Assembly: GCA_017521925.1 (NCBI GenBank) | Contig: JAFXBG010000005.1 | Coordinates: 1-40,285 of the forward strand | Source of the DNA: Clostridia bacterium | GTDB lineage: Bacteria; Bacillota; Clostridia; Oscillospirales; Acutalibacteraceae | Reading direction: 5' to 3' | DNA length: 40,285 nt | In this document: positions 2,607 to 17,592 of the stretch, in pieces | Layout: every line of letters begins with the position of its first letter | How positions within the stretch are numbered: position 1 is the stretch's first letter | Translations under genes and position numbers: made by a program | The notes under the pieces: model-generated | Seen by the model: the letters and a program-made list of their open reading frames with translations, nothing else | What the model was told of the DNA's origin: nothing | Databases searched by the model: none

Positions 2607-4211
2607 TCAAATACTTTTCTGCTTTGTGTAGTTAGGGAGAAGCTTAGGTGAAACTGTCTCTGTTTTGATACCTGCATCAGAAATTTCTTTTTCAAACTTC
2701 TCAACGTGAGACAATGTAAGCTTACCTACGGTTACTGTTTTAGCCTTAGCTGCAGCGTTGATACCTGCGCTTCTGCCAAAAACAATAATATCAAGCAAAG
2801 AGTTACCCATAAGTCTGTTCTTACCATGGATACCGCCAACAGCCTCGCCTGCAACAAAGAGGTTCTCAACATTGGTAGTCATACAGTTTGCATCAATATC
2901 AAGACCGCCGTTCTGATAATGAAGTGTTGGATAAACAAGGATAGGCTCCTTACGGATATCAATACCGTACTTATCAAACATTCTCCACATGGCAGGGATT
3001 CTCTTCATAATTGTACCCTCGCCGCCGATTTTCTCAATCATAGGAGTATCAAGCCAGACGCCATTGCCGTTGTCTGTATCAACACCGTTTGCACGGTCAC
3101 CGCACTCACGGATAATAGAAGCCGCTGCAACGTCACGGGTTTCAAGGGGATGCATAAACACTTCACCCTTTACGTTAACAAGCTTTGCACCGAGAGAACG
3201 AACCTTCTCAGTAACAAGAGCACCGAAAATCTGCTCGGGATATGCAACGCCTGTGGGGTGGTACTGTAAAGTTTCAGCATAAAGAAGCTTTGCGCCTGCT
3301 CTGTAACCCAGTACAAGACCGTCAGCAGTTGCACCATAGTGGTTGGATGTGGGGAATCCCTGATAATGCATACGGCCTGCACCGCCTGTAGCAATGATAA
3401 CAGTTTTAGCCTTAGCTACCAAAAGCTCTTTGGTTTCCATATTCATAAGAACTGCACCTGCAGCGTTGCCGTTTTCATCAAGAATAAGCTCAATAGCCGA
3501 AGTGAAATCAATTACAGGGATGTTACGGTTTATTACCTCGTCGCGGAGGGTACGCATAATCTCAGCACCTGAATAGTCCTTAGCGGCATGCATACGCTTG
3601 CGGGAAGTACCGCCACCGTGAGTTGTTACCATTGTGCCGTCAGCGTCTTTATCAAACTCAACACCTAAATCTGAGAGCCACTTAATAGCCTCAGGAGCAT
3701 CGCAAACAAGCTTTGAAAGCAGCTCACGTTTTGCAGCAAAGTGGCCGCCGCCGAAAGCATCCACAAAGTGAATTGCAGGCGAATCGTTGGGCTTGTCAGC
3801 TGCCTGAATACCGCCTTCTGCCATCATTGTGTTAGCATCACCGATTCTCAGCTTAGTAACAATCATAACGTCGGCGCCTGCCTCGTTGGCTTCAATAGCC
3901 GCAGAAGCACCTGCACCGCCGCCGCCTATAATAAGAACATCGGTTTCATAGTCGGGGGCAGAAAGGTCAACACTGTCAGCAGTAATACGGCTGTGTGCCT
4001 GTAAAATCTCAGCTAATTCAAAGGGGACCTTATCCCCTTTGTTAGGGCCAATCTTCAATACATCAAACTGGTCCTGTCTGTAGTCAGGATGAAAAGCTGC
4101 AAGCAAATCTTCCTTCTGCTTTGCAGTCATACGTTCAGGTTCTAACGCAATATTTTTATCTCTGGCTTTTTCTACCAATTCCAGAGAGTTCTGAAATTTT
4201 TCTGAATACAT
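2607..4211 (-). CDS. frdA: Fumarate reductase/succinate dehydrogenase-type flavoprotein subunit (soluble)
   Basis: FAD-dependent catalytic subunit of 534 residues, expected to reduce fumarate to succinate. An N-terminal extension of about 90 residues precedes the dinucleotide fold (DVLIIGGGGAGASAA, 91-105). Active-site elements of the family are present: HGGGTSRKR (198-206), QYHPTGV (317-322), the catalytic-type Arg in ETRD (359), TLHYQNGGL (429-437) and KNRLMGNSLLDIIVFGR (464-480). At the place where membrane fumarate reductases carry the FAD-linking His, this protein has Asn (ANTMMAEGG, about 127), so the flavin is probably non-covalent. The C-terminal capping domain of FrdA/SdhA appears to be missing. 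No membrane anchor gene is nearby, so the enzyme should be cytosolic. The start has GGAGG 9 nt upstream. Other FAD reductases of the superfamily remain possible, but the neighbours favour fumarate. Confidence 0.88.
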   Translation of the reverse strand: MYSEKFQNSLELVEKARDKNIALEPERMTAKQKEDLLAAFHPDYRQDQFDVLKIGPNKGDKVPFELAEILQAHSRITADSVDLSAPDYETDVLIIGGGGAGASAAIEANEAGADVMIVTKLRIGDANTMMAEGGIQAADKPNDSPAIHFVDAFGGGHFAAKRELLSKLVCDAPEAIKWLSDLGVEFDKDADGTMVTTHGGGTSRKRMHAAKDYSGAEIMRTLRDEVINRNIPVIDFTSAIELILDENGNAAGAVLMNMETKELLVAKAKTVIIATGGAGRMHYQGFPTSNHYGATADGLVLGYRAGAKLLYAETLQYHPTGVAYPEQIFGALVTEKVRSLGAKLVNVKGEVFMHPLETRDVAAASIIRECGDRANGVDTDNGNGVWLDTPMIEKIGGEGTIMKRIPAMWRMFDKYGIDIRKEPILVYPTLHYQNGGLDIDANCMTTNVENLFVAGEAVGGIHGKNRLMGNSLLDIIVFGRSAGINAAAKAKTVTVGKLTLSHVEKFEKEISDAGIKTETVSPKLLPNYTKQKSI

Positions 4212-4225
4212 ATGCTCTTTCCTCC

Positions 4226-4900
4226 TTACTTCTCAATATCTCTGTTGTTATAAAGTTCTTTCATCTCATCAACAGGCTTCTGCATAAGTGCCTCTATAAG
4301 CTCATTGAAATCACCATTTTTGATTTCTTTTACACGTTCCTCAAGATGAGCACTGCCGGGAGCAAGGTACTTGCCGTTGATTCTTCTGGCGAGCATTGCA
4401 ACCTGAGGATGAGAAATACCTGCAGGACATCTGGATGAGCATACACCGCACATTACGCAGTCAAAAGACTCTTCTGCACATTTTTCAAAATCGCCTCGCT
4501 GAGCGTAAGCTATGTACTGCATAACGTTAAGCCCCTGAGTGCAAGCTTTTGTGCAGGCATTACAGCCGATACAAGCATAAATTTCAGGATAAAGCTGCAT
4601 CATAACTGTCTCTGTTGTAGGAATAGTTTCAATATCATATACCTGCTTAACAAGAGGAAAGAAAGGTAAGGTAGCAATATACATATTGTCTTCTACTTTG
4701 GTCTGGCAAGCAAGACAAGCATGCAATTCGCGGTCACCTTTTATACGGTAAATAGTTGCACAAGCACCGCAAAAACCATTTCTGCAGCCACAGCCGCGAA
4801 CCAGCTGATAGCCTGCATATTCCATAGCAGTCATAATTGTAAGGTTTTCAGGTACTTCATATTTTTTACCAAAAAGAAAAATACTAACTGTCTTTTCCAT
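4226..4900 (-). CDS. frdB: FrdB-like iron-sulfur subunit (one 2Fe-2S, two 4Fe-4S sites)
   Basis: Electron-transfer partner of the flavoprotein, about 224 residues. The N-terminal ferredoxin-like domain carries the 2Fe-2S ligands in GCGCRNGFCGAC and HACLAC. The C-terminal half has two four-Cys motifs, CIGCNACTKAC and CVMCGVCSSRC, where canonical FrdB has one 4Fe-4S and one 3Fe-4S site. I chose the ATG at 4900 rather than the one at 4906, because AAGGAG stands 7 nt before the former and only 1 nt before the latter. In methanogen thiol:fumarate reductase this module is fused to an HdrB-like domain (TfrB). Here the HdrB part is a separate gene further up the same operon. It sits 14 nt upstream of the flavoprotein gene. 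Confidence 0.85.
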   Translation of the reverse strand: MEKTVSIFLFGKKYEVPENLTIMTAMEYAGYQLVRGCGCRNGFCGACATIYRIKGDRELHACLACQTKVEDNMYIATLPFFPLVKQVYDIETIPTTETVMMQLYPEIYACIGCNACTKACTQGLNVMQYIAYAQRGDFEKCAEESFDCVMCGVCSSRCPAGISHPQVAMLARRINGKYLAPGSAHLEERVKEIKNGDFNELIEALMQKPVDEMKELYNNRDIEK

Positions 4901-4911
4901 ATACATTCTCC

Positions 4912-5745
4912 TTAATACTCACCTGGAAGTTCTTCGAGTTCATCACAACGGAAAACCGGGCCATCCTTGCAGACGTATTTTGCACCTACATTACATCTGC
5001 CGCACTTACCGACACCGCACTTCATTCTGAGCTCAAGTGTTGTATAAACATTGGTTTTGTCAAAGCCGATATCGCAGAGTCCGTCCAATGTGAACTTAAT
5101 CATAACAGGAGGACCGCAGATAACTGCTACTTTATTTGTGTTAAACCCCAGTTCTTTTACATAATTTGGAACAAAGCCTACGTGACCGTCCCAACCGTCC
5201 TGAGGGTTATCAATGGTCAGATAAACATTAACTCCGTTATCCTTTGACCATTCTTCAATAATTTCATTGTAATCAAGAAGGTCGTCTTTACTGCGTGAAC
5301 CGTAAACAATATCAATCTTACCGTAGCGGTCACGGTAATGACGGCAATAATTGATTACAGAACGCAGAGGAGCAAGACCAACACCGCCTGCTATAAACAG
5401 AAGGTCTTTGCCTGCAAACACATCATCCACAGGGAAAGGCTTGCCGTAAGGTCCGCGGATAGTAATCTGCTGACCTGCTTCTGCCTGGTGCAGCCAATCG
5501 GTTACACAACCGCATTTTTTAATGGAAAATTCCATATACTCCTCGTTTGTAGGAGAAGATGTAATGGAAAACATCGCCTCGCCTACACCTGGTACTGAAA
5601 GCATTGCACACTGACCGGGTCTGTGGTCAAATGCCTTTTTACCGTCAGGAGTTACCACCCTGAAGGTTTTGATATCAGGTGTATCAATACGGACATCAGT
5701 AATGACACCAATTTTCGGAATCAAAGTATCATTAATATTATTCAC
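4912..5745 (-). CDS. FAD/NAD(P)-binding 2Fe-2S subunit, FloxA / sulfhydrogenase-gamma type
   Basis: Probable NADH-oxidising entry subunit of the Flox-Hdr complex, about 277 residues. Domains in order: a ferredoxin-reductase FAD barrel ending in FSITSSP, an NAD(P) fold with GGVGLAPLRS and later CGPPVM, and a C-terminal four-Cys 2Fe-2S motif (MKCGVGKCGRCNVG ... YVCKDG). The same architecture is found in dihydroorotate dehydrogenase PyrK, AsrB, sulfhydrogenase gamma and FloxA. The start is taken at the GTG at 5745, because GGAGG lies 8 nt before it; the longer TTG frame would begin inside the ribosome-binding site. It overlaps the previous gene by a few bases, which indicates translational coupling. 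NADH rather than NADPH preference is inferred from the Rex/fermentation context only. Confidence 0.85.
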   Translation of the reverse strand: MNNINDTLIPKIGVITDVRIDTPDIKTFRVVTPDGKKAFDHRPGQCAMLSVPGVGEAMFSITSSPTNEEYMEFSIKKCGCVTDWLHQAEAGQQITIRGPYGKPFPVDDVFAGKDLLFIAGGVGLAPLRSVINYCRHYRDRYGKIDIVYGSRSKDDLLDYNEIIEEWSKDNGVNVYLTIDNPQDGWDGHVGFVPNYVKELGFNTNKVAVICGPPVMIKFTLDGLCDIGFDKTNVYTTLELRMKCGVGKCGRCNVGAKYVCKDGPVFRCDELEELPGEY

Positions 5746-6766
5746 CTTTGTTTCCTCCAATCTCTTTCATTACTTTAACTATATTCATTGAAATAGGACA
5801 CTTAGAGAGACATCTGCCGCAACCTACACAACTGAATATTTCCTCATTGTTTTCAGGATAATATACAAGCTTGTGCATAAACCTCTGACGGAAACGCTCC
5901 TTCTGTGTATTACGGTTATTGCCGTGAGCCATTTTTGTAAAATCGGAATACATACAGGAATCCCAGCATCTGAAACGGATAACGCCTGTGCCTGTGTTGA
6001 AATCCTTAATGTCATAGCACTGGCAAGTGGGACATACAAAGGTACAGGTACCGCATCCAAGACAAGACTCTGAAAGTTCTTCCCATTTGGGAGAATCAAA
6101 AATCTCTGCCGTTTTGCCCCCGCCAAAACCATCTGTAGTAAGATTCTTAAGAGGAAGCCTGTTCATTACAGCGTTAATCTTTGCCTTTTGAGCATCGACC
6201 TCATTATTATCGCAATCTTCAAGAATACCGTCAAGAGCAGTAAGAAGATTTTCGCCCTTTGCAGTATTGCTTTTAAAGAACACCTCGGTTTCGGTTTTCC
6301 ATGCGGAAATATCGCCCTGAGGCTCTGCAGGGTCTATGCCGAAGGTTTTACAGAAGCAGGTTTCGGAAGGTCTTGTGCAAGCCATGGAAATAATAATACC
6401 GTGGTTTCTGCGTGATGCATAGAAACTGTCAACAGGCTCTGAAAGGAAAACTCTGTCTAAAATATCAAAGCTCCTTACATCACAGGCTCTTACGCCGAAG
6501 ATAACAAAATCATCAGGCTCAACTCTTGTGTCAATAACCTCAATAGTCTTACCAAGTGTTTTGAATCCCATAAGATTCTCAGTCTGAGGGAAGAAGAAAT
6601 CCTTAGGACTTCTTACCGTATTAAGAGCATTGCTGTAAGCTGTGCCATCTTCCCACTTTTTATAAACCGCACTGCCGTCGTTCTCGTCCACAGGAAGATA
6701 CAGTACGGCGTTTTTCGCAATTTCTGCAAAAAGAAGATTTATTTTATCAAGGGAGCATTTACGCAT
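5738..6766 (-). CDS. 4Fe-4S dicluster subunit, FloxB/C, AsrA or sulfhydrogenase-beta type
   Basis: Cytosolic Fe-S electron carrier of 342 residues. The N-terminal two thirds resemble the beta subunit of sulfhydrogenase and anaerobic sulfite reductase A. The C-terminal third has two cluster motifs, CLGCGTCTFVCPTCQC and CVGCGRCLSKCPIS. In Flox and related complexes such a subunit relays electrons between the NAD(P)/FAD subunit and the MvhD-like/HdrA part. The start is placed at the ATG at 6766, with AAGGAGGG about 7 nt upstream; a longer reading frame exists but would place that site inside the gene. It overlaps both neighbours. I cannot tell from the sequence which of this gene and the next corresponds to FloxB and which to FloxC. 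Confidence 0.8.
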   Translation of the reverse strand: MRKCSLDKINLLFAEIAKNAVLYLPVDENDGSAVYKKWEDGTAYSNALNTVRSPKDFFFPQTENLMGFKTLGKTIEVIDTRVEPDDFVIFGVRACDVRSFDILDRVFLSEPVDSFYASRRNHGIIISMACTRPSETCFCKTFGIDPAEPQGDISAWKTETEVFFKSNTAKGENLLTALDGILEDCDNNEVDAQKAKINAVMNRLPLKNLTTDGFGGGKTAEIFDSPKWEELSESCLGCGTCTFVCPTCQCYDIKDFNTGTGVIRFRCWDSCMYSDFTKMAHGNNRNTQKERFRQRFMHKLVYYPENNEEIFSCVGCGRCLSKCPISMNIVKVMKEIGGNKGE

Positions 6767-7757
6767 CAGTGTCCCTCCTTGTAAGAGCCTCACCGGGCTC
6801 TAAATCTTCGGTTGTGTAGCTTACAAGAGGAGCTCGCATACCAACCTCTTCACCTGCCTGATACTCACCGTAGAATTCGTTCATATCCTTGATGAACTTA
6901 CGGTTTAAAAGATGCAGGGGAATATTCTGGGGACATACTCTTGAGCATTCTCCGCAGTCGGTACAACGACCGGCAACGTGATATGCACGGATAATATGGA
7001 AAAGCTTTTCTTCAAAGCTGTTTGCAGGAGATTTATTTTCAACACCTGATGCAGGGTTGTCAAACACGCACTTTTCGCAGGTGCATGCAGGACATGCGTC
7101 ACGACAAGCGTTGCAACGGATGCAACGGGAAAGCTCATTCTGCCAGAAAGCAAATCTTTCGTCAGGAGTAAGTGCCTCAATACGGGCAACCTCGTCAAAC
7201 CTGCTATTCTCGATTACGTCGCCCTCTTCGCCTAAAAGCTCGTCATAAGCCACGTGCTTTTTACTCTTGCAGTTTATGCATCTCTCAGCAAGAACGCTCT
7301 TAAAATCAACAGCGACAGGCTCTTCGTCATAAAGAGTTGATACAAGCAAATTGTCACCGTCTGTATCGATAGAAGAAATACCCTCGCCAACAGTTGCCTT
7401 AACCTTGGATATATCAACCATACCCTCGCAAGGAATACCTATTGCGTACACCTTTTCGCGGTCAAAGCGATGCTCTGATAAAAGCTGGTTAAAGCTGTAT
7501 GTGTCACAGGGCTTAAGGAAAACAAGAATTTTGCCCTCAAGCTTACGGGTTTTGGAAACAAGATATTTTGAAAAATTTGCACCGCAGAAATCATTGTAAA
7601 CGAAATCACGTTCAAGTTCTTCAACAGAGCTGAAAACTGCGGGAGTTACGTCATAACCGAACTCACCCTTTTTCCAGCCTAAAACACAGCTTACCGTGCC
7701 TGAAGATAGGAGTGCTGATGCTTTTTCGATTAAAATATCACCGGTTATTTTTTGCAT
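6759..7757 (-). CDS. Second 4Fe-4S subunit of the Flox-like complex
   Basis: Fe-S protein of 332 residues. A Cys-containing stretch near the middle (RCINCKSKKH) recalls the F420-hydrogenase/formate-dehydrogenase beta superfamily. It is followed by ferredoxin-type motifs RCIRCNACRDACPACTCEKC and CTDCGECSRVCPQNIP. Together with the following gene it forms the paired Fe-S subunits typical of flox clusters. The start ATG at 7757 has GGAGG 7 nt upstream and overlaps the end of the MvhD-like gene by 13 nt. The role is electron transfer between the NAD(P)H-oxidising subunit and MvhD/HdrA. Assignment to the complex rests on gene order and motif content. Confidence 0.78.
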   Translation of the reverse strand: MQKITGDILIEKASALLSSGTVSCVLGWKKGEFGYDVTPAVFSSVEELERDFVYNDFCGANFSKYLVSKTRKLEGKILVFLKPCDTYSFNQLLSEHRFDREKVYAIGIPCEGMVDISKVKATVGEGISSIDTDGDNLLVSTLYDEEPVAVDFKSVLAERCINCKSKKHVAYDELLGEEGDVIENSRFDEVARIEALTPDERFAFWQNELSRCIRCNACRDACPACTCEKCVFDNPASGVENKSPANSFEEKLFHIIRAYHVAGRCTDCGECSRVCPQNIPLHLLNRKFIKDMNEFYGEYQAGEEVGMRAPLVSYTTEDLEPGEALTRRDTDA

Positions 7758-8179
7758 CTTAAATCCTCCAATCTCTTGTTTTCGCCCAGTGCAGTAACCT
7801 GCTGAACAAAATCATTCATTGTAGCGGCAAACTTTGCACCCTCAGCAGCAGATACCCACTCAAGACGGGTACGCTCTCTTTCAATGCCAAGATAATCAAG
7901 CATTGAGAAAAGTGCAGTCATTCGACGGCGTGCATAATAGTTACCGGACGTATAGTGACAATCACCGGGGTGGCAACCGCAGATAATAACACCATCTGCA
8001 CCACGTTGGAATGCACGAAGGATAAACATAGGATTAACACGGCAGGAACAAGGCACACGGATAATCTTTACATCTGCAGGATAATTAAGGCGGTTGTTAC
8101 CTGCAAGGTCAGCACCTGCATAAGAACACCAGTTACAGCAAAACGCAACGATTAAAGGCTTATATTCATTTACTTGCAT
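7745..8179 (-). CDS. MvhD/FloxD-type 2Fe-2S electron transfer subunit
   Basis: Small protein of 144 residues of the methyl-viologen hydrogenase delta family, which delivers electrons to HdrA. The family's Cys motifs are all visible: FCCNWCSYAGAD near residue 15, VPCSCRVNP near 43 and GCHPGDCHY near 70. The length is normal for the stand-alone form. It overlaps hdrA by 10 nt and the next Fe-S subunit by 13 nt, so the set is translated as a unit. The ATG at 8179 is preceded by GGAGG. Identification as the bridge between Flox and Hdr subunits is well supported by family knowledge. Confidence 0.92.
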   Translation of the reverse strand: MQVNEYKPLIVAFCCNWCSYAGADLAGNNRLNYPADVKIIRVPCSCRVNPMFILRAFQRGADGVIICGCHPGDCHYTSGNYYARRRMTALFSMLDYLGIERERTRLEWVSAAEGAKFAATMNDFVQQVTALGENKRLEDLRCKK

Positions 8180-10164
8180 ATCGCGTCAACCTCCGCCATA
8201 ATCTGTAAGTTTGCAAACCCCTTTAAGTCCATAGCTCCTGAGGGACAAGCAACGGTACAAGCACCGCAACCCTGACAAACAGCAGGGTTAACTTCTGCCA
8301 CTCGTCTTACCTTTGTGGTTCTGTCAGGCATACGGAATTCTTTTTCTGCATAAGTAATAGCACCGTAAGGACATACATTTGCACAAGACGAACAACCGTT
8401 ACACATAAGCTCATCAGAGCTTGCAACACAGGGGTTACCTGTAAGCTTATCCTTGGCAAGTAAACCGATTACCTTAGAGGCTGCGGCACCTGCCTGAGAA
8501 ACTGTTTCGGGAATATCTTTAGGGCCCTGACAAGCACCTGAGAGGAATACGCCTGCTGTGGGGCTTTCTACGGGTCTGAGCTTGGGGTGAGCCTCTGTAA
8601 AGAAGTCGTTTGTATCCATACTTGCTGTAAGCATTGTTGCAAGAGGACGTGCAGACTTGTCAGGCTCGATAGCTGCTGCAAGAACAACTAAATCAGCATC
8701 AATATGAAGCTGCTTGTTTGCAATAAGGTCGGAAGCCTGAACCTTAAGCTTGTCGCCTTCAGGTGTTACCTTACCAACCATACCTTTAATGTATTTAACG
8801 CCGAATTCTTCTACAGCACGGCGATAAAATTCATCAAAATTCTTACCGGGGGTTCTTACATCAATGTAGAACACATAAACCTCGGTATCAGGATATTTGT
8901 CACGGGTAAGCATTGCGTGCTTTGCAGTATACATACAGCAAATCTTGGAGCAATACTCCTTACCCTTCTCAGCGCAAGCCTCACATCTGGAGCCTACACA
9001 CTGGACAAAAACAATAGTATGGGGATGCTTGCCGTCAGAAGGACGTAAAAGCTTACCTGCTGACGGACCTGCCGCATTGGTAAGACGCTCAAACTCAAGG
9101 GAAGTAATTACATCCTTGGACTGACTGTAAGCAAACTCATCAAATTTATCCATACTTATAGGATTAAAACCTGTTGCAACTACAATTGCACCGTACTTTT
9201 CCTCTATATACTCATCCTTCTGAGTATAGTCAATGGCACCTGCGGTACATACCTTAGAGCAGATACCGCACTTGCCCTTTTTAAGCATAGTACAAGCAGT
9301 GGGGTCAATGGTTGCAACCTTGGGTACTGCCTGTGCAAAAGGAATGTAAATTGCTGTGCGGTTATCCATACCCAGGTTAAACTCGTTGGGGATTTTTTTC
9401 ATAGGGCATTTTTCTAAACAAGCACCGCAACCTGTACAAATTTCTTCCTTAACATAACGGGCATTCTTTTTGATAGTAACATCAAAGTTACCAACAAAGC
9501 CTTTAACATCTGTAACCTCACTATATGAAAAAATACGGATTTTTTCATTCTGAGCAACATCAACCATTTTAGGTGTCAGAATACAGGCGGCACAGTCAAG
9601 AGTGGGGAATGTTTTGTCAAGCTGTGCCATTTTACCGCCAATGGTAGGATTTTTTTCTACAATATCTACCTCAAAACCTGCATCCGCAATATCAAGGGCA
9701 GTCTGGATACCTGCTATACCACCGCCGATAACAAGGGCACGCTTAGTAACAGGTGACTCTCCGGGAGTAAGAGGAGCATTGAGGTTAACCTTTGCAACAG
9801 CGGCTTTACCTAAGATAATAGCCTTTTCGGTACCTGTTGCCATATCCTTATGTACCCAGGAGCACTGCTCACGGATGTTTGCAATCTCAACCATATAAGG
9901 GTTAAGACCTGCGGCAGCCGCAGTTTTGCGGAAAGTTGCCTCGTGCATTCTGGGAGAACAGGAACAGACAACTATACCCGTAAGGTTATGTTCTTTAACG
10001 GCAGTTTTAATCATATCCTGTCCTGCCTGAGAACACATATATTGATAGTCGGTGGAAAAGACTACGCCAGGTTCGCTTTTCAATGCTTCTGCCACCGCCT
10101 GCACATCAACTGTGCCTGCAATGTTACTTCCACACCAACATACAAAAACACCAACTCTTTGCAT
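8170..10164 (-). CDS. hdrA: HdrA, flavin- and Fe-S-containing core of heterodisulfide-reductase-like complex
   Basis: Core subunit of 664 residues. In characterised Hdr complexes HdrA holds the bifurcating FAD and splits electron pairs between HdrBC and ferredoxin. Layout: an N-terminal cluster domain (CWCGSNIAG at 9-17, CSCSPRMHEATFR at 67-79); an FAD fold (GGGIAG at 147-152, GGKMAQLDKTFPTLDCAACILTPKM at about 176-200); an inserted ferredoxin domain (CTGCGACLEKC and CTMLKKGKCGICSKVC, about 243-306); CVGSRCEACAEKGKEYCSKICC (about 389-410); and a C-terminal two-cluster ferredoxin. All motifs of the full-length class are present, without truncation or a fused MvhD. The ATG at 10164 has AAAGGAGG upstream. 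Whether it truly bifurcates cannot be decided from sequence. Confidence 0.95.
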   Translation of the reverse strand: MQRVGVFVCWCGSNIAGTVDVQAVAEALKSEPGVVFSTDYQYMCSQAGQDMIKTAVKEHNLTGIVVCSCSPRMHEATFRKTAAAAGLNPYMVEIANIREQCSWVHKDMATGTEKAIILGKAAVAKVNLNAPLTPGESPVTKRALVIGGGIAGIQTALDIADAGFEVDIVEKNPTIGGKMAQLDKTFPTLDCAACILTPKMVDVAQNEKIRIFSYSEVTDVKGFVGNFDVTIKKNARYVKEEICTGCGACLEKCPMKKIPNEFNLGMDNRTAIYIPFAQAVPKVATIDPTACTMLKKGKCGICSKVCTAGAIDYTQKDEYIEEKYGAIVVATGFNPISMDKFDEFAYSQSKDVITSLEFERLTNAAGPSAGKLLRPSDGKHPHTIVFVQCVGSRCEACAEKGKEYCSKICCMYTAKHAMLTRDKYPDTEVYVFYIDVRTPGKNFDEFYRRAVEEFGVKYIKGMVGKVTPEGDKLKVQASDLIANKQLHIDADLVVLAAAIEPDKSARPLATMLTASMDTNDFFTEAHPKLRPVESPTAGVFLSGACQGPKDIPETVSQAGAAASKVIGLLAKDKLTGNPCVASSDELMCNGCSSCANVCPYGAITYAEKEFRMPDRTTKVRRVAEVNPAVCQGCGACTVACPSGAMDLKGFANLQIMAEVDAICK

Positions 10165-10179
10165 TTGTCTTTTCCTCCT

Positions 10180-10569
10180 TTACTTAGTATATTTTCTGAA
10201 AGCACTTACAAGAAGCTGCTGAGGTGTGTCCTCGTCTACAATTGCGGGAACATCATTAGCAGTCATTCTGTTTGCACCCTGCTTTCTGACAGCAAAAAGA
10301 CGCACAGCCTCAACCACCTTTGCAGGCTCCACCCCTCTGGGGCATCTGTCGATACAAGCAAAGCAGGAAAGGCACTTATAGAGTGAATCAGAATTAAGAA
10401 GAGGCGTAATATCGCCGCTTTCAACCATATTTACAAACTGATGGGGATGATACTCCATCTCATCGTATGCAGGGCAGGTTGCAGAACACTTGCCGCACTT
10501 CATACATTTAGCTGTGTTAACGCCGCTGATGCGGATGATTTCATCGCGAAGATACCGGTTATTATGCAT
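10180..10569 (-). CDS. hdrC: HdrC, 4Fe-4S ferredoxin subunit
   Basis: Electron relay of 129 residues between HdrA and HdrB. It has two complete four-Cys motifs, CMKCGKCSATCP (about 21-32) and CLSCFACIDRCPRGVEP (about 64-80), and the normal length for the bacterial cytosolic form with no membrane anchor. The ATG at 10569 follows AAAGGAGG and overlaps the end of hdrB by 8 nt. It is separated from hdrA by 15 nt. Confidence 0.93.
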   Translation of the reverse strand: MHNNRYLRDEIIRISGVNTAKCMKCGKCSATCPAYDEMEYHPHQFVNMVESGDITPLLNSDSLYKCLSCFACIDRCPRGVEPAKVVEAVRLFAVRKQGANRMTANDVPAIVDEDTPQQLLVSAFRKYTK

Positions 10570-11350
10570 TTGTATCCTCCTTTACGCCAAGAGCTTCTGC
10601 CAGAAGCTCCGTAAAATAAACCACGGGAATATCAGCACCGTTTTTCTCAAGATTATATTTACAAAGAGGACAAGCGGTGATAATCATTTCAGCACCTGCT
10701 GCCTTTGCGTTTTTTACAACTGCGTTACTGTTTCTTCTTGCAGAGTCAGGGCTTTCAACTGAGATATAGCCGCCGCAACACTCATTACGCTTGGCATAAA
10801 CTACAGCATCAGCACCCAATGCTCTTATAAAATCCTCCATAATGGTGGGATTTTCAGGGTCATCCATACGCATAACTTTGTTGGGACGCAGTAAAAGGCA
10901 ACCGTAATACGCTGCAATTTTTTTGCCCTTAAGGCTATTTACAACCTTTTCTTTAAGAGTATCAAAGCCAACTAAATCACGTAACATTTCAAGGTAATGA
11001 TATACCTCTGCCTCACCGTTATAGCTGTCCTCTGCCATATATCTGTTAACCTTGTCGGCAAAGGTTTTGTTGGTCTGCATTGCGTAATTAGTCTGCTTTA
11101 TAACATTGTGACAAGCTGAGCAAACAGTTACCAAAGGCTCATTTCTTTCAAAGGCATATTTTAAAGCACGAACAGAAGAAAGCTTTGTGGCAACCTCGTC
11201 GTCAGCAGATGTAAAGACACCGCCGCAGCACTGCCAGTTTTCAATTTCTTCCAGAGTAACACCCAAAGCTGAGGCAGATTTGTAAGAATACAAATCAAGG
11301 TCTTTCGCCTTATTCTTTAAGGTGCAACCGGGGAAATAACTAACCTTCAT
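10562..11350 (-). CDS. hdrB: HdrB, two-CCG-domain subunit with complete non-cubane cluster motifs
   Basis: Protein of 262 residues with two CCG domains. The first motif is C9, C41-C42, C77 and C80 (CX31CCX34CXXC). The second is C-X39-CC-X34-CXXC in the C-terminal half (YYGCLLL ... ECCGGY ... CPLC). Both are complete, so both non-cubane 4Fe-4S clusters of methanogen HdrB could form. In methanogens HdrB reduces the CoM-CoB disulfide; in sulfate reducers the partner is thought to be DsrC. Neither substrate is indicated here. In TfrB the same module is fused to an FrdB-like domain, so electron delivery to the separate FrdB-like protein of this operon is an attractive role. The ATG at 11350 has GGAGG upstream. 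Confidence 0.93.
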   Translation of the reverse strand: MKVSYFPGCTLKNKAKDLDLYSYKSASALGVTLEEIENWQCCGGVFTSADDEVATKLSSVRALKYAFERNEPLVTVCSACHNVIKQTNYAMQTNKTFADKVNRYMAEDSYNGEAEVYHYLEMLRDLVGFDTLKEKVVNSLKGKKIAAYYGCLLLRPNKVMRMDDPENPTIMEDFIRALGADAVVYAKRNECCGGYISVESPDSARRNSNAVVKNAKAAGAEMIITACPLCKYNLEKNGADIPVVYFTELLAEALGVKEDTNA

Positions 11351-11365
11351 TAAATTACCTCCGAA

Positions 11366-12742
11366 TTATACCATCTCTTCGGGATGGAAAACCTCATCAA
11401 ATTTTTCAGCAGTTAAGAAACCAAGCTCTACACAAGCTTCTTTAAGGGAAATATTATCCTTAAAAGCCTTTTTAGCAGTCTTTGCGGCATTTTCGTAACC
11501 GATATAGGGATTAAGTGCAGTAACAAGCATCAGGGAATTGTGCAGGTTGTGATGCATCTTCTCTTTGTTTGCCTTAATGCCTACTGCACAGTTCTTGTTG
11601 AATGATACAATAGCTTCTGCCAGAAGACGGGTTGACTGCAAGAAGTTATAAATACAAACAGGCATAAACACATTAAGCTCGAAGTTACCCTGAGAAGCCG
11701 CCATAGTAATAGCAACATCATTACCCATAACCTGAACAGCAACCATTGTCACTGCTTCGCACTGAGTGGGGTTAACCTTACCCGGCATAATGGAAGAGCC
11801 GGGTTCGTTTTCGGGAATAAAGATTTCACCAAGACCGTCGCGGGGGCCTGATGCCAGCCAACGAACGTCGTTTGCAATCTTCATCATATCGCAAGCAAGA
11901 GCCTTGACAGCACCGTGTGCAAATACAAGCTCATCTTTGGATGTAAGTGCGTGGAACTTATTGGCAGCAGTAACGAAAGGCTTGCCTGTAATATTGCCTA
12001 CTTCCTTTGCAACTGTTTCTGCAAAACCTGCAGGAGCATTAAGACCTGTGCCAACTGCTGTTCCGCCTAAAGCAAGCTCATAAAGAGGCTCTAAAGAACG
12101 TTTGATAAGCTCTACGTCCTTTTCAAGGCTTGAACGCCATCCGCTGATTTCCTGGCTGAAGGTAATGGGAGTAGCATCCTGAAGATGTGTTCTGCCGCTC
12201 TTTACGATGCCTTCATTTTCCTCTTCCAGTCTTTTAAAAGTAGCGATAAGCTCCTCTACTGCAGGAATAAGCTTGTCCTCTAAAGAAAGAACAGCGGCGA
12301 TGTGCATTGCTGTGGGGAATGTGTCATTGGATGACTGACTCATATTTACATCATCATTGGGATGAAGAAGAGTTTTGCCTAAAATCTGGTTGCCGCGGTT
12401 TGCAATAACCTCATTGGAGTTCATATTTGACTGTGTGCCTGAACCTGTCTGCCATACAACCAAAGGAAAATGAGAGTTGAGCTCGCCTGCCATAACCTCG
12501 TCACAAGCCTGCTTGATTGCAGAAAGCTTTTCGTCTGTCATTTTTTCGGGGCGGAGTGCATTGTTGGTTACAGCTGCTGCTTTTTTCAGAATGCCGAAAG
12601 CATTGATTATTTCCTTGGGCATAGTTTCAATGTCTACACCTATTTCAAAATTCTCGTGGCTTCTTTGTGTCTGTGCTGCCCAAAGACGGTCAGCAGGCAC
12701 TTTCATTTCACCCATAGAATCATGTTCAATACGATATTCCAT
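11366..12742 (-). CDS. fumC: Class II fumarate hydratase
   Basis: Interconverts malate and fumarate as a soluble homotetramer without Fe-S clusters. The 458-residue length is normal for the family. The superfamily signature GSSIMPGKVNP is intact, with the upstream SGSGTQSNMN-type (QTGSGTQSNMNSNEV) and GRTHLQDATP motifs. It is flanked by the malate-dehydrogenase-like gene (15 nt upstream) and hdrB (15 nt downstream), which fits dehydration of malate to feed fumarate reduction. The ATG at 12742 has AGAGAGG upstream. Confidence 0.97.
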   Translation of the reverse strand: MEYRIEHDSMGEMKVPADRLWAAQTQRSHENFEIGVDIETMPKEIINAFGILKKAAAVTNNALRPEKMTDEKLSAIKQACDEVMAGELNSHFPLVVWQTGSGTQSNMNSNEVIANRGNQILGKTLLHPNDDVNMSQSSNDTFPTAMHIAAVLSLEDKLIPAVEELIATFKRLEEENEGIVKSGRTHLQDATPITFSQEISGWRSSLEKDVELIKRSLEPLYELALGGTAVGTGLNAPAGFAETVAKEVGNITGKPFVTAANKFHALTSKDELVFAHGAVKALACDMMKIANDVRWLASGPRDGLGEIFIPENEPGSSIMPGKVNPTQCEAVTMVAVQVMGNDVAITMAASQGNFELNVFMPVCIYNFLQSTRLLAEAIVSFNKNCAVGIKANKEKMHHNLHNSLMLVTALNPYIGYENAAKTAKKAFKDNISLKEACVELGFLTAEKFDEVFHPEEMV

Positions 12743-12757
12743 AATACAAAACCTCTC

Positions 12758-13699
12758 TTATATCTCAATACTTTTAATAATTTCCTTAAGGCAATCCGCA
12801 CTGTGACGCAAAGCTGCAACTTCTTCATCGTTCAAAGGAAGAATAACCTTTGTATGTGCACCCTCATGCCCTACCACGTTAAGCAAACTCAGGCATACAT
12901 CATCAATACCATATTCGCCGTGCATCATAGTTGAAACTGTCATTGTTGTATCGATACCGCTGAGCAAGCATTTGCAGATATGGCATACAGACATAGATAC
13001 CGCATAGTATGTAGCACCTTTGCGTGCGATAACTCTGGCACCTGATTTACGAACGTAGTTTTCAACCTCATTACGGTCAAACTCAGGATAATCGTTAGCC
13101 TTGTTAAGTGCATCGCCGTAGTCCTCAATAGGAACATTGGAAATATTCGCAATAGACCATGGAACAAAAGCAGAGTCACCGTGCTCACCTAAAACATAGG
13201 CATGAACGTTCTTCTGATTTACATCATAGTACTCTGCTACACGGGCACGCAGACGTGCGGTATCAAGAATTGTACCTGAACCGATTATACGCTCCTCAGG
13301 AATACCAGAAATCTTATGAAACACATATGTCAGAATATCAACAGGATTGCTTACGATAATGTACATAGCCTCCGGAGCATGCTTGACAATTTCTTTGGAT
13401 ACTGTTTTAAGAATATCAATGTTAGTCTGTGCCAGCTCCAGTCTGGACTGACCAGCTTGCCTTGCGACACCGCATGTGATAACTACGATGTCAGAGTCCT
13501 TGGCATCCTCATAAGAACCTGCATAAATTGTAGCGGGGTTGCAGAAAGGCACACCCTGCCTGATATCAAGAGCCTCACCAAGAGATTTTTCCTGGTTAAT
13601 ATCAATCATTACAATTTCTGAAGCGATTCCCATAACTATCAGGGTGTACGCAATTGTAGAGCCAACGCTACCGGAACCTATTACTGTAATTTTGTTCAT
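12758..13699 (-). CDS. mdh: LDH-fold dehydrogenase, predicted malate dehydrogenase
   Basis: NAD-dependent 2-hydroxyacid dehydrogenase of 313 residues with Rossmann motif GSGSVGS (8-14), DTARLR (146-151) and the catalytic GEHGD (His173). It looks like an L-lactate dehydrogenase overall, but the specificity loop reads AR-QAGQSR, not NQ-KPGETR. Aligning the fixed Arg (R86, LDH number 109) puts R80 at position 102. That residue is Gln in lactate and Arg in malate dehydrogenases of this superfamily. Placed between rex and fumC in a PEP-to-succinate cluster, oxaloacetate reduction to malate with NADH is the more likely reaction. Automated annotation may call it Ldh. The start has AAGGGG 8 nt upstream, and a 96-nt gap separates it from rex. 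Confidence 0.8.
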   Translation of the reverse strand: MNKITVIGSGSVGSTIAYTLIVMGIASEIVMIDINQEKSLGEALDIRQGVPFCNPATIYAGSYEDAKDSDIVVITCGVARQAGQSRLELAQTNIDILKTVSKEIVKHAPEAMYIIVSNPVDILTYVFHKISGIPEERIIGSGTILDTARLRARVAEYYDVNQKNVHAYVLGEHGDSAFVPWSIANISNVPIEDYGDALNKANDYPEFDRNEVENYVRKSGARVIARKGATYYAVSMSVCHICKCLLSGIDTTMTVSTMMHGEYGIDDVCLSLLNVVGHEGAHTKVILPLNDEEVAALRHSADCLKEIIKSIEI

Positions 13700-13795: not shown

Positions 13796-14419
13796 TTAAT
13801 CCTGGGACATCTGATTTCTTAAATGTGCCAAGGATAATGCCAGATGCTCGTTCTGCAGCAAAACACCTGAGGGAACCTGTAACTTACAGGGAGCAAAGTT
13901 CCATATCGCAGTTATTCCGCTTTCAACCATCCGGTCACATACTTGCTGTGCCGAGCCTTCACCCACCGTAATAATACCAATGCAAATATTATGCTCTTTA
14001 CAAAATAAATCAAATTGTTCCATAGGTAATATTGGCGTCGCCGAATCAATACTCATTGTTTTTTCACGTAAGTCAAAGGCTGCTGCAATTTTTACGCCAA
14101 ACTGCTGGAATCCATCGTATTGCAACAATGCTCTTCCTAATTTTCCGGCACCTACCAACACAGCCAAGGTTATTTTGTTACGCCCCAGGCAATCCTCGAG
14201 CCGCTCTATGAGGAACTCGATTTCATAACCCAGTCTGGGCTTTCCTGCACCACTCACCATTGCAAGGTCTTTTCTGACCTGAACCTCTCCAAGATTAAGC
14301 TCTTTGGAAATAGTCGTTGCAGATATATAAGGAACTTTTTGGGGAGACAAACTCCTCAAAAAATCAAGATATCCCGGTATTCTGCCTAATGTGGCTTTTG
14401 AAATAGAAATCTTATCCAT
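13796..14419 (-). CDS. rex: Redox-sensing transcriptional repressor Rex
   Basis: NADH/NAD+-responsive DNA-binding protein of about 207 residues. The N-terminal winged helix contains ISISKATLGRIPGYLDFL and recognition-helix region GEVQVRKDLAMVSGAGKPRLGY. The C-terminal Rossmann domain has VLVGAGKLGRALL. Rex usually releases its operators when NADH is high and so turns on fermentative NADH-consuming genes. Leading this operon, it suggests that NADH excess induces fumarate reduction. I start it at the ATG at 14419, because GGAGG lies 7 nt before it; an adjacent ATG at 14422 is possible, and the longer GTG frame would contain the ribosome-binding site. The wing reads KPRLGY rather than the more common KRGVGY, so its operator may deviate from the classical one. 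Confidence 0.95.
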   Translation of the reverse strand: MDKISISKATLGRIPGYLDFLRSLSPQKVPYISATTISKELNLGEVQVRKDLAMVSGAGKPRLGYEIEFLIERLEDCLGRNKITLAVLVGAGKLGRALLQYDGFQQFGVKIAAAFDLREKTMSIDSATPILPMEQFDLFCKEHNICIGIITVGEGSAQQVCDRMVESGITAIWNFAPCKLQVPSGVLLQNEHLALSLAHLRNQMSQD

Positions 14420-14472
14420 CATCACACCTCCATCCACTTAACGGTTAAAAAGCAAACAGATTCTATACTGAC

Positions 14473-14764: not shown

Positions 14765-14895
14765 TGCCCGAAGGGCAATATCACTCGGCTTTAGCCGAAT
14801 ATCACTGCGTAGCAATATCACTCGGCTTTAGCCGAATATCACTGCGTAGCAATATCACTGCGTAGCAATATCACTCGCCGTAAGGCGAATATAAC
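14765..14895. repeat. Array of seven small hairpins joined by a 7-nt linker
   Basis: Seven short palindromes follow one another: 14765-14777, 14785-14798, 14806-14814, 14822-14835, 14843-14851, 14859-14867 and 14875-14888. Cores are GCCC/GGGC, TCGGC/GCCGA (twice), TGC-GTA-GCA (three times) and TCGCC/GGCGA. Every junction is the same ATATCAC, with the last one degenerate (ATATAAC). It is not CRISPR: units are palindromic and of mixed sequence with a constant 7-nt spacer. A related copy in inverse orientation lies near 20257-20326. Confidence 0.85.
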
Positions 14896-15416: not shown

Positions 15417-16316
15417 ATGAGAAACCGAATTGAAGCTCTTAAAAAAGAAAAGAATGCCGTTATTATGGCTCATTACTATGCACCTGCCGAAGCACAGGAA
15501 ATTGCCGACTTTGTGGGTGACTCCTTTTACCTTGCTAAAGTTGCCAAGGAAAGTGATGCTGATGTAATTGTTTTCTGCGGTGTTAACTTTATGGGTGAAA
15601 GTGCAAAAATTCTCTGTCCCGATAAAAAGGTGCTTATGCCTGACCTGAGTGCAGACTGCCCAATGGCCCATATGGTGAAAGAAGGCAAAATTGACGAAAT
15701 GCGTGAGCGATTCTCTGACCTTGCAGTTGTGTGCTACATAAACTCCACTGCTGAGCTTAAATGTCAGAGCGATGTATGCGTTACATCTTCAAATGCTGTA
15801 AAAATAGTCAGGGCATTACCTAACAAAAACATCTTCTTTATTCCCGACAGGAATTTAGGAAGATTCGTGGCATCGGAAGTACCTGAAAAAAATATCATCT
15901 TAAATGATGGCTGTTGCCCGATTCATGCTGATGTAAGTGCTGTTTCTGTAAAAGCAGAGGTAGAAAAGCATCCCGATGCGTTGGTTCTTTGCCATCCTGA
16001 ATGTGAGCCTGAAATTTTAGAATTTTCAGATTTCAGCGGCAGCACTGCCGAGATTATCGACTTTGCAAAAAAAAGCGACAAAAAGGAATTTATTATTTGT
16101 ACTGAAGAGGGCGTTGCCTTTAAACTGAGAAACGATAACCCTGAAAAAAATTTCTACTTTCCTTCTCCCTGCCCTGTTTGCAAAGATATGAAGTTAAACA
16201 CTTTAGAGAACATACTTAAGGTTTTGGAAAATGACGAAAATCAGGTAGAAGTAAGTGCCGACACACGCACAGGTGCTCTTTTACCTTTAGACAGAATGTT
16301 GGAGCTTGGTAAATAA
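15417..16316 (+). CDS. nadA: Quinolinate synthase NadA
   Basis: Condenses iminoaspartate with dihydroxyacetone phosphate to quinolinate, the second step of de novo NAD synthesis. The 299-residue length is normal for the short form. Three conserved Cys that hold the 4Fe-4S cluster are placed as in the family: CGVNFMGESAKIL (about 59), CQSDVCVTSSNAV (about 118-123) and CPVCKDM (about 252-255). The ATG at 15417 has AAGGA upstream. It is followed 1 nt after the stop by nadB. Confidence 0.96.
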   Translation: MRNRIEALKKEKNAVIMAHYYAPAEAQEIADFVGDSFYLAKVAKESDADVIVFCGVNFMGESAKILCPDKKVLMPDLSADCPMAHMVKEGKIDEMRERFSDLAVVCYINSTAELKCQSDVCVTSSNAVKIVRALPNKNIFFIPDRNLGRFVASEVPEKNIILNDGCCPIHADVSAVSVKAEVEKHPDALVLCHPECEPEILEFSDFSGSTAEIIDFAKKSDKKEFIICTEEGVAFKLRNDNPEKNFYFPSPCPVCKDMKLNTLENILKVLENDENQVEVSADTRTGALLPLDRMLELGK

Positions 16317-16317
16317 T

Positions 16318-17592
16318 ATGAAAACTGACATTATTATTGTAGGCTGCGGTGTTGCAGGTCTTTACTGTGCACTTAATCTGCCTGAAGAAAAGAATATAGT
16401 TATAGTTACTAAAAATAAAGCCAGACGAAGCGATTCTTATCTTGCTCAGGGCGGTATATGTGTTCTGAGGGATGAAGATGATTTCAAGGATTTCTACGAA
16501 GATACCATGCGTGCCGGTCACTATGAAAACGACCCTGACTCTGTAGAAATTATGATACGCTCATCTCAGGAAGTAATTGGAGACCTGGTTTCATTTGGTG
16601 TTAACTTTGAGAAAAACGGCAAGGAATTCATATACACCCGCGAAGGTGCTCATTCACGTCCAAGAATTCTTTTTCACGAAGACGAAACAGGAAAGGAAAT
16701 CACCTCTAATCTTCTGGAAACTGCAAGAAACAAAAAGAATATAACTTTAATAGAAAACTTCACTATGGTTGACCTTATTGTAGAGGACAATATCTGCAAA
16801 GGTATTATTGGCCATTATAATGAAGGTGAATATATTTCAATTGCCGCTGACTACACCGTGCTGGCTACAGGCGGTATAGGCGGACTTTTCAAGCACTCTA
16901 CAAATTACCCCCACCTTACAGGCGATGCTCTGGCTCTGGCTCTTAAATACGGCATCAAGCTTCAGGATATTGACTATATTCAGATTCATCCCACAACCCT
17001 TTACTCTCAGAAGCACGGCAGAGAATTCCTGATTTCTGAATCTGTAAGAGGCGAAGGTGCGGTGCTTTTAAACTCTAAAGGTGAAAGATTTGTCAACGAG
17101 CTTTTACCCCGCGATGTAGTGGCCAACGCAATTTTCGACGAAATGAAAAAAGAAGGTACCAATCACGTATGGCTTTCTCTTGCGGCAATTGATGAAGAAG
17201 AAATCAAAAGCCACTTCCCAAATATATACAGTCATTGCCTGGAAGAAGGTTACGATATAACTAAAGAACCTATTCCCGTTGTACCTTCTCAGCACTATTT
17301 TATGGGCGGTATTGAGGTTGACACTCACAGCCTTACATCCATGCCAAGGCTTTATGCTGTTGGCGAAACAGCCTGCAACGGTGTTCACGGCAAAAACAGA
17401 CTTGCAAGCAACTCACTTTTGGAAAGTCTTGTTTTTGCAAAACGTGCTGCTGAACATATTACAGATGATTATACTGCTTTAAGCGATAATACTGATTTTG
17501 ACGTAAACGAAAACTTGTATACAGGTTATCAGGAAAAATACAAAGAAATGGTGCTTGATGCCATAGAAAAGGAGAAGAAAAACCGTGAATAA
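16318..17592 (+). CDS. nadB: L-aspartate oxidase NadB
   Basis: FAD enzyme that oxidises L-aspartate to iminoaspartate, using oxygen or fumarate as acceptor; in an anaerobe fumarate is expected. It has 424 residues. Motifs: IIVGCGVAGLYCA at the N-terminus, SYLAQGG for FAD, THEGAHSR-like TREGAHSRPR, HPTT, and NRLASNSLLES near residue 360. It shares its superfamily with the FrdA-like protein of this window but has the typical NadB active-site loop. The ATG at 16318 is used; the upstream TTG frame overlaps nadA. It overlaps the start of nadC by 8 nt. Confidence 0.95.
   Translation: MKTDIIIVGCGVAGLYCALNLPEEKNIVIVTKNKARRSDSYLAQGGICVLRDEDDFKDFYEDTMRAGHYENDPDSVEIMIRSSQEVIGDLVSFGVNFEKNGKEFIYTREGAHSRPRILFHEDETGKEITSNLLETARNKKNITLIENFTMVDLIVEDNICKGIIGHYNEGEYISIAADYTVLATGGIGGLFKHSTNYPHLTGDALALALKYGIKLQDIDYIQIHPTTLYSQKHGREFLISESVRGEGAVLLNSKGERFVNELLPRDVVANAIFDEMKKEGTNHVWLSLAAIDEEEIKSHFPNIYSHCLEEGYDITKEPIPVVPSQHYFMGGIEVDTHSLTSMPRLYAVGETACNGVHGKNRLASNSLLESLVFAKRAAEHITDDYTALSDNTDFDVNENLYTGYQEKYKEMVLDAIEKEKKNRE

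Follow-up and report, generated by a model that had tools for sequence, protein, structure and literature searches.

A 40,285-nucleotide stretch of contig JAFXBG010000005.1 (assembly GCA_017521925.1) from a Clostridia bacterium of the family Acutalibacteraceae, hereafter the window, carries nine consecutive minus-strand genes, hdrB-hdrC-hdrA-mvhD-floxC-floxB-floxA-frdB-frdA, which span positions 11350-2607. Judged from their sequences, and with a probability of roughly 0.6, these genes encode a soluble NADH:fumarate reductase of the Flx-Hdr type that needs no quinone and would bifurcate electrons at HdrA to ferredoxin (NADH, reduced nicotinamide adenine dinucleotide). The two parts of this interpretation differ in strength: it is probable that FrdBA receives the electrons of NADH via Flox-Hdr, and on balance we favour the reduction of ferredoxin as well. 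According to the available passages of PMC7282089, both the operon layout and the hypothesis are already published for the thermophile Pseudoclostridium thermosuccinogenes, and the window is a further case, not new in kind.

Organization of the gene cluster

Matches to Pfam and NCBIfam models support the identity, order and position of all nine genes at 2607-11350 on the minus strand, as described in an initial annotation made from the letters alone. The genes hdrABC and floxABCD are contiguous on one strand, and the spacing is as tight as had been reported, with junctions between -35 and +15 nucleotides: HdrB/HdrC -8, HdrC/HdrA +15, HdrA/MvhD -10 and MvhD/FloxC -13 in the upstream half, and FloxC/FloxB -35, FloxB/FloxA -23, FloxA/FrdB +5 and FrdB/FrdA +14 in the downstream half, where the sizes of the FloxC/FloxB and FloxB/FloxA overlaps hinge on the choice of GTG or TTG starts. 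The absence of a membrane anchor gene is likewise borne out, as none of the nine proteins contains a 19-residue Kyte-Doolittle segment above 1.8; the AspT-like gene next after frdA has eight such segments. The cluster extends beyond these nine genes, with rex (from 14437), a gene of the lactate/malate dehydrogenase (LDH/MDH) family and fumC upstream, and an AspT-like carrier gene and pckA downstream.

Linkage and distribution

The association of frdBA with flox-hdr, which the initial annotation had proposed to follow across genomes, supports a functional link. Among 295 genomes of the window's order, FrdA (E <= 1e-120) was found in 54 and FloxC, taken as the Flox marker (E <= 1e-30), in 52; both occur in 52, FrdA only in 2 and neither in 241 (Fisher P about 5e-56, a statistic that ignores shared ancestry). 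FrdA is thus present in 52/52 FloxC genomes, and in the genomes checked no FloxC turned up without FrdA. The annotation had also named a lack of frdAB/flox-hdr linkage in relatives as evidence against its proposal; the linkage is strong, with FrdA and FloxC on one contig, 3502-4436 nucleotides apart, in 50/52 genomes (positions copied by hand). In G714 a single cluster is broken across two contigs and continuous over the break, and in G689 the FrdA match begins at a contig end. HdrA is single-copy and lies inside the cluster in both cluster-bearing genomes checked (G000 and G010), and no HdrA was found in five other genomes checked (G594, G685, G661, G033 and G420).

A scan of genome records with the FrdA alignment gave at least 560 relatives, of which the best 80 (75-92 percent identity) were kept, and the set therefore leans to close relatives. 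Record titles among these best 80 of at least 560 name mostly Clostridia, Oscillospiraceae and Ruminococcus, many from gut or faecal samples, and include an uncultured Treponema (L095) as well as Ruminococcus flavefaciens twice, once as strain FD-1 (L099). The arrangement is not due to chance, as 58 of the 80 loci carry the full set of eight FrdA partner genes; in 21 of the other 22 the contig ends no more than 6.2 kilobases (kb) upstream, and the last, L070, has 10 kb of upstream sequence without Flox-Hdr. Within the window's genus the cluster is patchy, since a close FrdA occurs in 5/36 genomes, the window's included. No relative was found in the viral contigs searched.

Anatomy of FrdA and FrdB

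The FrdA-like flavoprotein (2607-4211, minus strand; FAD_binding_2 match) retains the residues of a dicarboxylate site. Its H318, E335, R359, H431 and R466 align with the catalytic residues His232, Glu245, Arg287, His355 and Arg390 of Escherichia coli FrdA, and all five are kept in 74/74 aligned family members, with T334 kept in 73/74. In complex II a His carries covalent flavin adenine dinucleotide (FAD), and loss of this His favours fumarate reduction; the corresponding site, located via the E. coli FrdA alignment, is Asn127 in the window and Asn in 74/74 aligned sequences. A domain search gave no match to the C-terminal flavoprotein domain, and an N-terminal extension of ~88 residues with conserved R17, R27, HPD41-43 and G55 has no relatives in Pfam at E 0.01 and none below E 0.7 among solved structures. 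The best NCBIfam model is that of TfrA (344 bits, below its cut-off of 718); the SdhA/FrdA model gives 281 bits and the NadB model TIGR00551 271.3 bits. Misreading of an L-aspartate oxidase (NadB) as FrdA was rejected, as the NadB score is under its cut-off of 452.75 and the window has its own NadB. A classical membrane fumarate reductase was likewise rejected, on the absence of an anchor gene, the absence of a His-FAD site and model scores below cut-off.

FrdB (4226-4906, minus strand; 226 residues; Fer2 and Fer4 matches) combines a [2Fe-2S] set (C41/46/49/67) with two CxxCxxCxxxC sets (C112-122 and C150-160), and all twelve cysteines are kept in 55/55 aligned sequences. The classical FrdB has three cysteines in its third cluster motif; the last motif here has four, a feature that fits a soluble partner rather than quinol, and the score on the classical model TIGR00384 is 30.1 bits, below the cut-off of 88.

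FrdA frames are broken in three relatives, by a frame change in L197 (8935-10535) and L198 (9141-10723) and by an in-frame TAG near 6992 in L083; the cause may be assembly error or real decay. A programmed frameshift, considered for the split FrdA of G525 and G542, is unlikely because the frame breaks at different places in each.

Anatomy of the Flox-Hdr module

On the Hdr side, all genes lie on the minus strand. HdrB (10562-11350), the probable link from HdrC to FrdB, has two CCG domains that retain the cysteine sets of both noncubane [4Fe-4S] clusters, and the ten cysteines are kept in 16/16 aligned sequences; a CCG pattern test matched in 57/58 named loci with HdrB, and the miss, L069, has both sets on reading. 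Its best-scoring model is the SdhE-type anchor of 8-methylmenaquinol:fumarate reductase (161.6 bits, cut-off 500), with HdrB next. When the two halves of TfrB are considered, HdrB scores 46.6 bits on the C-half and FrdB 39.4 on the N-half, both below the TfrB cut-off of 385; going by such matches, HdrB-type and FrdB-type parts recur as a pair in known fumarate reductases. HdrC (10180-10569) would bind two [4Fe-4S] clusters (Fer4 dicluster match). HdrA (8170-10164), the putative bifurcating subunit with FAD and [4Fe-4S], matches the solved methanogen HdrA chain 5odc_A over residues 3-661 at 694.4 bits, that is, over its full length; it reaches 779.9 bits on NF040770, below the cut-off of 1100, and stays under the cut-offs of the NCBIfam methanogen HdrA models.

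The remaining subunits, also on the minus strand, form the Flox side: an MvhD/FlpD-like protein corresponding to FloxD (7745-8179; PF02662, 187.2 bits), a FloxC-like Fe-S subunit (6759-7757; Fer4 match), a FloxB-like Fe-S subunit (5738-6793; PF17179) and a FloxA-like subunit (4912-5760; PF00970, PF00175 and PF10418). For FloxB, the best NCBIfam models (sulfhydrogenase/hydrogenase beta and AsrA) all score below cut-off. FloxA, the probable point of NADH entry, carries FAD_binding_6, NAD_binding_1 and DHODB Fe-S domains, which do not tell NADH and NADPH apart.

Genomic setting

In ten genomes searched for possible redox partners, RnfC was over the cut-off in nine and narrowly under it in G051, the tenth, and an [FeFe] hydrogenase was found in 10/10; the window's genome has both. 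DsrC was found in 0/10, in a search that did not include other thiol carriers. Elsewhere in the window's genome nothing exceeded the cut-off of the classical FrdB model TIGR00384. This genome is 72.6 percent complete, and absences in it are therefore weak; in the remaining genomes, completeness is at least 97 percent in seven and 95 percent in two.

Proposed mechanism and alternative explanations

In the proposed scheme, the enzyme would catalyse the last step of a route from phosphoenolpyruvate (PEP) via oxaloacetate, malate and fumarate to succinate. A hydride, presumably from NADH, would enter at FloxA, and electrons would pass via FloxB, FloxC and MvhD to HdrA, whose FAD would split each pair. 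One electron of each pair would go to ferredoxin, and the other would run through HdrC, HdrB and FrdB to the FAD of FrdA and reduce fumarate, along a path that presupposes a physical complex. The overall reaction would be 2 NADH + fumarate + 2 oxidised ferredoxin -> 2 NAD+ + succinate + 2 reduced ferredoxin, at about -33 to -49 kJ/mol as estimated from redox potentials. Reduced ferredoxin would then be reoxidised by Rnf or hydrogenase, with Rnf storing the energy as an ion gradient.

The initial annotation had put forward such a bifurcating fumarate reductase, and its genetic groundwork is strengthened by the frdBA/flox-hdr linkage, the conserved catalytic residues and a quinone-poor, Rnf-bearing setting (UbiA in 1/10 genomes, RnfC in 9/10), while the electron path, NADH as donor and the ferredoxin step are inferred. 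A broader formulation, to which we assign even odds, would hold that fumarate is the true high-potential acceptor of the bifurcation, with the noncubane clusters of HdrB acting as a wire to FrdB rather than as a place of disulfide chemistry; that FrdBA is a soluble acceptor cartridge joined to several Hdr-type complexes in Bacillota; and that quinone-poor gut Clostridia, Ruminococcus flavefaciens included, conserve energy from making succinate via ferredoxin and Rnf.

One alternative is the same soluble NADH:fumarate reductase working without bifurcation, with Flox-Hdr as a mere electron carrier and the energy lost as heat. A one-acceptor HdrA complex would look identical in sequence, but HdrA matches its methanogen counterpart over the whole length, nine subunits would be a costly outfit for plain reduction, Rnf and hydrogenases are at hand to use ferredoxin, and bifurcation is known or proposed for other HdrABC complexes in the passages of PMC5861303 available; we regard this alternative as possible but rather unlikely. 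A thiol relay, in which Flox-Hdr reduces a disulfide, either small or on a protein, and the resulting dithiol serves FrdBA, possibly joined by HdrB, as electron source for fumarate as in methanogen TfrAB, gains from the two intact CCG cysteine sets of HdrB, from TfrA as the top (below cut-off) model of FrdA and from the proposal of DsrC for the Hdr/flox system of D. alaskensis (PMC4215793, in the part consulted). It is nevertheless improbable: FrdB lacks the CCG half of TfrB, no gene of the cluster reads as a thiol carrier, and MetFV-HdrABC-MvhD provides a precedent for direct transfer to a partner enzyme (PMC5861303, same passages). DsrC as the carrier was rejected on its absence from the ten genomes, within the limits of that search given above.

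Two further alternatives concern direction and substrate. Were FrdA to act on another unsaturated or amino acid compound, for instance as L-aspartate oxidase, the NadB score of 271 bits, close to the 281 of the SdhA/FrdA model, and the non-covalent FAD that is common to NadB would be accounted for; a separate NadB at 16306-17592 that passes NF004820, the adjoining fumarase and the near-invariant dicarboxylate-site residues described above make this very improbable. Reverse use, with reduced ferredoxin driving succinate oxidation to yield NADH, draws on other families, whose related FrdBA stands beside genes for malic enzyme and 2-oxoacid oxidoreductase-like proteins and might work oxidatively there. 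Little credence at all can be given to it in the window, where pckA and the AspT-family carrier adjoin and FrdA lacks the covalent-FAD His; in addition, the many relatives titled as gut samples come from a habitat where fermentation is likely.

Several observations weigh against a bifurcating NADH:fumarate reductase operating in a succinate pathway. At the level of the enzyme, HdrB keeps both CCG cysteine sets, so that a thiol/disulfide step is possible, and disulfide chemistry may therefore be open to the complex. At the level of gene content, G594 and G685 (2 of 295 genomes) keep FrdBA without FloxC or HdrA, and FrdBA can accordingly exist apart from Flox-Hdr; 20/41 distant loci, from the phylum sample described below, have no clear Hdr module, although some stretches are short and two show weak HdrC-like matches. 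Among the ten genomes, UbiA prenyltransferase is over the cut-off in G045, for which it counts against quinone independence, in a search that does not cover every quinone route, and classical dhsB is over the cut-off in G616. At the level of the pathway, the LDH/MDH-like protein passes the L-lactate model TIGR01771 (335.8 bits, cut-off 303.55) and narrowly misses the malate model NF004863 (278.0, cut-off 283); the single Rex operator pattern tried gave 8 matches against 7.2 expected by chance; and PEP carboxykinase of the adenosine triphosphate (ATP) type occurs in 2/10 genomes, in a search that left other oxaloacetate-forming routes outside, and its step is therefore not general. Finally, lowering the redox potential with Na2S in P. 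thermosuccinogenes had an effect opposite to that of H2 (PMC7282089, in the passages available).

Flanking genes and a probable route to succinate

Together, the genes of the cluster probably constitute a PEP -> oxaloacetate -> malate -> fumarate -> succinate route with its own carrier. All flanking members lie on the minus strand. A Rex-type redox-sensing repressor, probably an NADH-linked regulator (13796-14437; NF003994, 242.6 bits, cut-off 130), stands 96 nucleotides before the LDH/MDH-family gene (12758-13699). Lactate enzymes have Gln at a position where malate enzymes have Arg, and the window enzyme is probably a malate dehydrogenase because it has Arg there; the motif was matched in 46/48 relatives, all 46 with Arg, and left unmatched in L036 and its duplicate L050. 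The presence of a malate-type Arg in an LDH-family protein beside fumarase makes a substrate switch within the LDH family possible. Class II fumarase FumC (11366-12742; TIGR00979, 720.8, cut-off 664.75) also passes NF008909, a broad model of the aspartate ammonia-lyase subfamily (517.5, cut-off 510), but not the aspA model.

Downstream, the AspT/aspartate:alanine-exchanger-family carrier (1322-2584; PF06826, 169.9 bits; TIGR01625, 112.8) is a candidate succinate exporter, and the AspT family includes a succinate exporter according to the portion of PMC9527358 seen. PEP carboxykinase of the ATP type (3-1229; PF01293, 573.4 bits) has its 3' end cut, as the end of the contig interrupts pckA at base 3. 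The gene also lies downstream of FrdA in 3/89 relative loci (L043, L045 and L054), of which 66/89 extend 3 kb beyond FrdA and which include three duplicate pairs. At L152 (2778-8736), FrdBA adjoins pyruvate carboxylase, another oxaloacetate-forming enzyme.

Promoter-like sites (39 against a shuffled mean of 29.4) and terminator-like sites (15 against a mean of 13.2) were not used as evidence. Short repeats were seen by eye at 14770-14890, between rex and the tRNA-Tyr/tRNA-Thr genes, and on the plus strand at 15417-18436 lie genes that by eye resemble nadA-nadB-nadC, the model-confirmed NadB among them offering an in-window contrast to FrdA.

FrdBA apart from Flox-Hdr and with other Hdr partners

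Of the two genomes of the order that keep FrdBA alone, G594 is the same contig as L070 (also L193), with all 74 test blocks matching, and in G685 (L194) frdBA directly follows fumarase. In the phylogenetic tree both fall among Flox-Hdr-linked rows and their place reads as loss of Flox-Hdr, but their branches are longer, at 0.25 (shared by both G594 copies) and 0.81 (G685), and the fork nearest G685 is weakly supported. L170, a locus of another family with FrdBA and no Hdr, is placed next to the window's clade, but its branch length of 1.17 makes this position unsure. The FloxHdr label, carried by 40 rows, some of them by place in the set with contigs ending before the Flox-Hdr genes, needs four changes on the tree.

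A phylum sample of 398 genomes had FrdA in 41, the window's included, and all 41 loci outside the window were fetched (40 genomes, two loci in G145), at 49-63 percent identity. An Hdr module borders FrdBA in 21/41 of these distant loci, in several arrangements: 12 (two of them truncated) have Hdr together with MvhD and a FloxC-like gene, 4 have HdrC-HdrB directly before FrdBA, 4 have HdrBCA after FrdA, and 1, L187, has a full Flox-Hdr and is distant from the window's clade on the tree. Where HdrC-HdrB directly precedes FrdB-FrdA with no HdrA or Flox match nearby (L164:2596-6225, L175, L182 and L185), the arrangement looks like a putative split thiol:fumarate reductase. At L155 (2484-13173) and its kin (11 family f77 loci, two cut short, plus L184), FrdBA adjoins HdrCBA, MvhD and a FloxC-like gene, with no match to FloxA or FloxB at these loci; L155 also has a 1070-residue protein with HdrA-like parts, a thiamine pyrophosphate-enzyme subunit and malic enzyme. 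At L162 (8176-13445), an FMN_bind/Fer4 protein and a NapC/cytochrome c7-like protein precede FrdBA, which suggests a possible connection to the membrane or periplasm; L183 and L189 resemble it by eye, the domain scan having been made on L162.

Significance

If the proposed coupling is true, a strict anaerobe would gain ion-gradient energy from fumarate without a quinone or a membrane reductase, and the ATP yield of succinate formation would be higher. That Ruminococcus flavefaciens FD-1 and numerous other Clostridia carry the operon makes a hypothesis raised for one thermophile testable in gut organisms, with at least one named strain. Furthermore, the occurrence of FrdBA with several Hdr arrangements provides a natural set for studying how such complexes swap their terminal acceptor.

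Comparison with known systems

No experimentally shown bifurcating fumarate reductase was found in the literature searched, whose partial coverage leaves absence unproven, and no tie between this enzyme and Ruminococcus flavefaciens was found there, the accessible part of PMC6776011 included. Complex II and quinol:fumarate reductase share with the window the catalytic residues of FrdA, and the SdhE anchor of 8-methylmenaquinol:fumarate reductase resembles the window HdrB, below cut-off; in contrast to complex II, the window has no membrane anchor, no His-linked FAD site, a four-Cys third cluster and no C-terminal flavoprotein domain match. The coenzyme M/coenzyme B thiol:fumarate reductase TfrAB is nearer in its models, TfrA being the top one for FrdA and the TfrB halves matching FrdB and HdrB, whereas the window differs in its scores below cut-off, its two separate subunits for the TfrB halves, its Flox partner and the N-terminal extension of FrdA.

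In sulfate reducers, the hdr and flox genes of FloxABCD/FlxABCD-HdrABC are likewise clustered, and the passages of PMC4215793 seen propose NADH-to-ferredoxin bifurcation with Rnf, a heterodisulfide carrier such as DsrC, and a separate fumarate reductase that is a Wolinella-type quinol enzyme; the window's Flox-Hdr is instead tied to frdBA, in a setting where DsrC was found in 0/10 genomes. The MetFV-HdrABC-MvhD complex of Moorella, as described in the part of PMC5861303 seen, likewise joins HdrABC-MvhD to a different terminal enzyme with NADH as donor, but its acceptor is methylene-tetrahydrofolate, and MetFV stands in place of the window's FloxABC and FrdBA.

The closest counterpart is the succinate operon CDQ83_RS03365-03315 of P. 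thermosuccinogenes, which in the passages of PMC7282089 available comprises fumarase, Flx-Hdr, fumarate reductase and a possible succinate carrier. That source proposes a fumarate reductase tied to ferredoxin via Flx-Hdr, citing a 2019 preprint by Koendjbiharie and van Kranenburg; it reports the operon to be about fourfold up at low CO2, not significantly for every subunit, and mentions an older study in which addition of H2 almost abolished succinate. The window has the same run of fumarase, Flx-Hdr, fumarate reductase and carrier, matched by the published gene list, and beyond the list compared it adds rex and the LDH/MDH-like gene upstream and pckA downstream. Relative to those passages, the present analysis contributes the spread of the operon in Clostridia, its near-strict co-occurrence together with the exceptions, the FrdA and FrdB signatures, and the varied Hdr partners of FrdBA.

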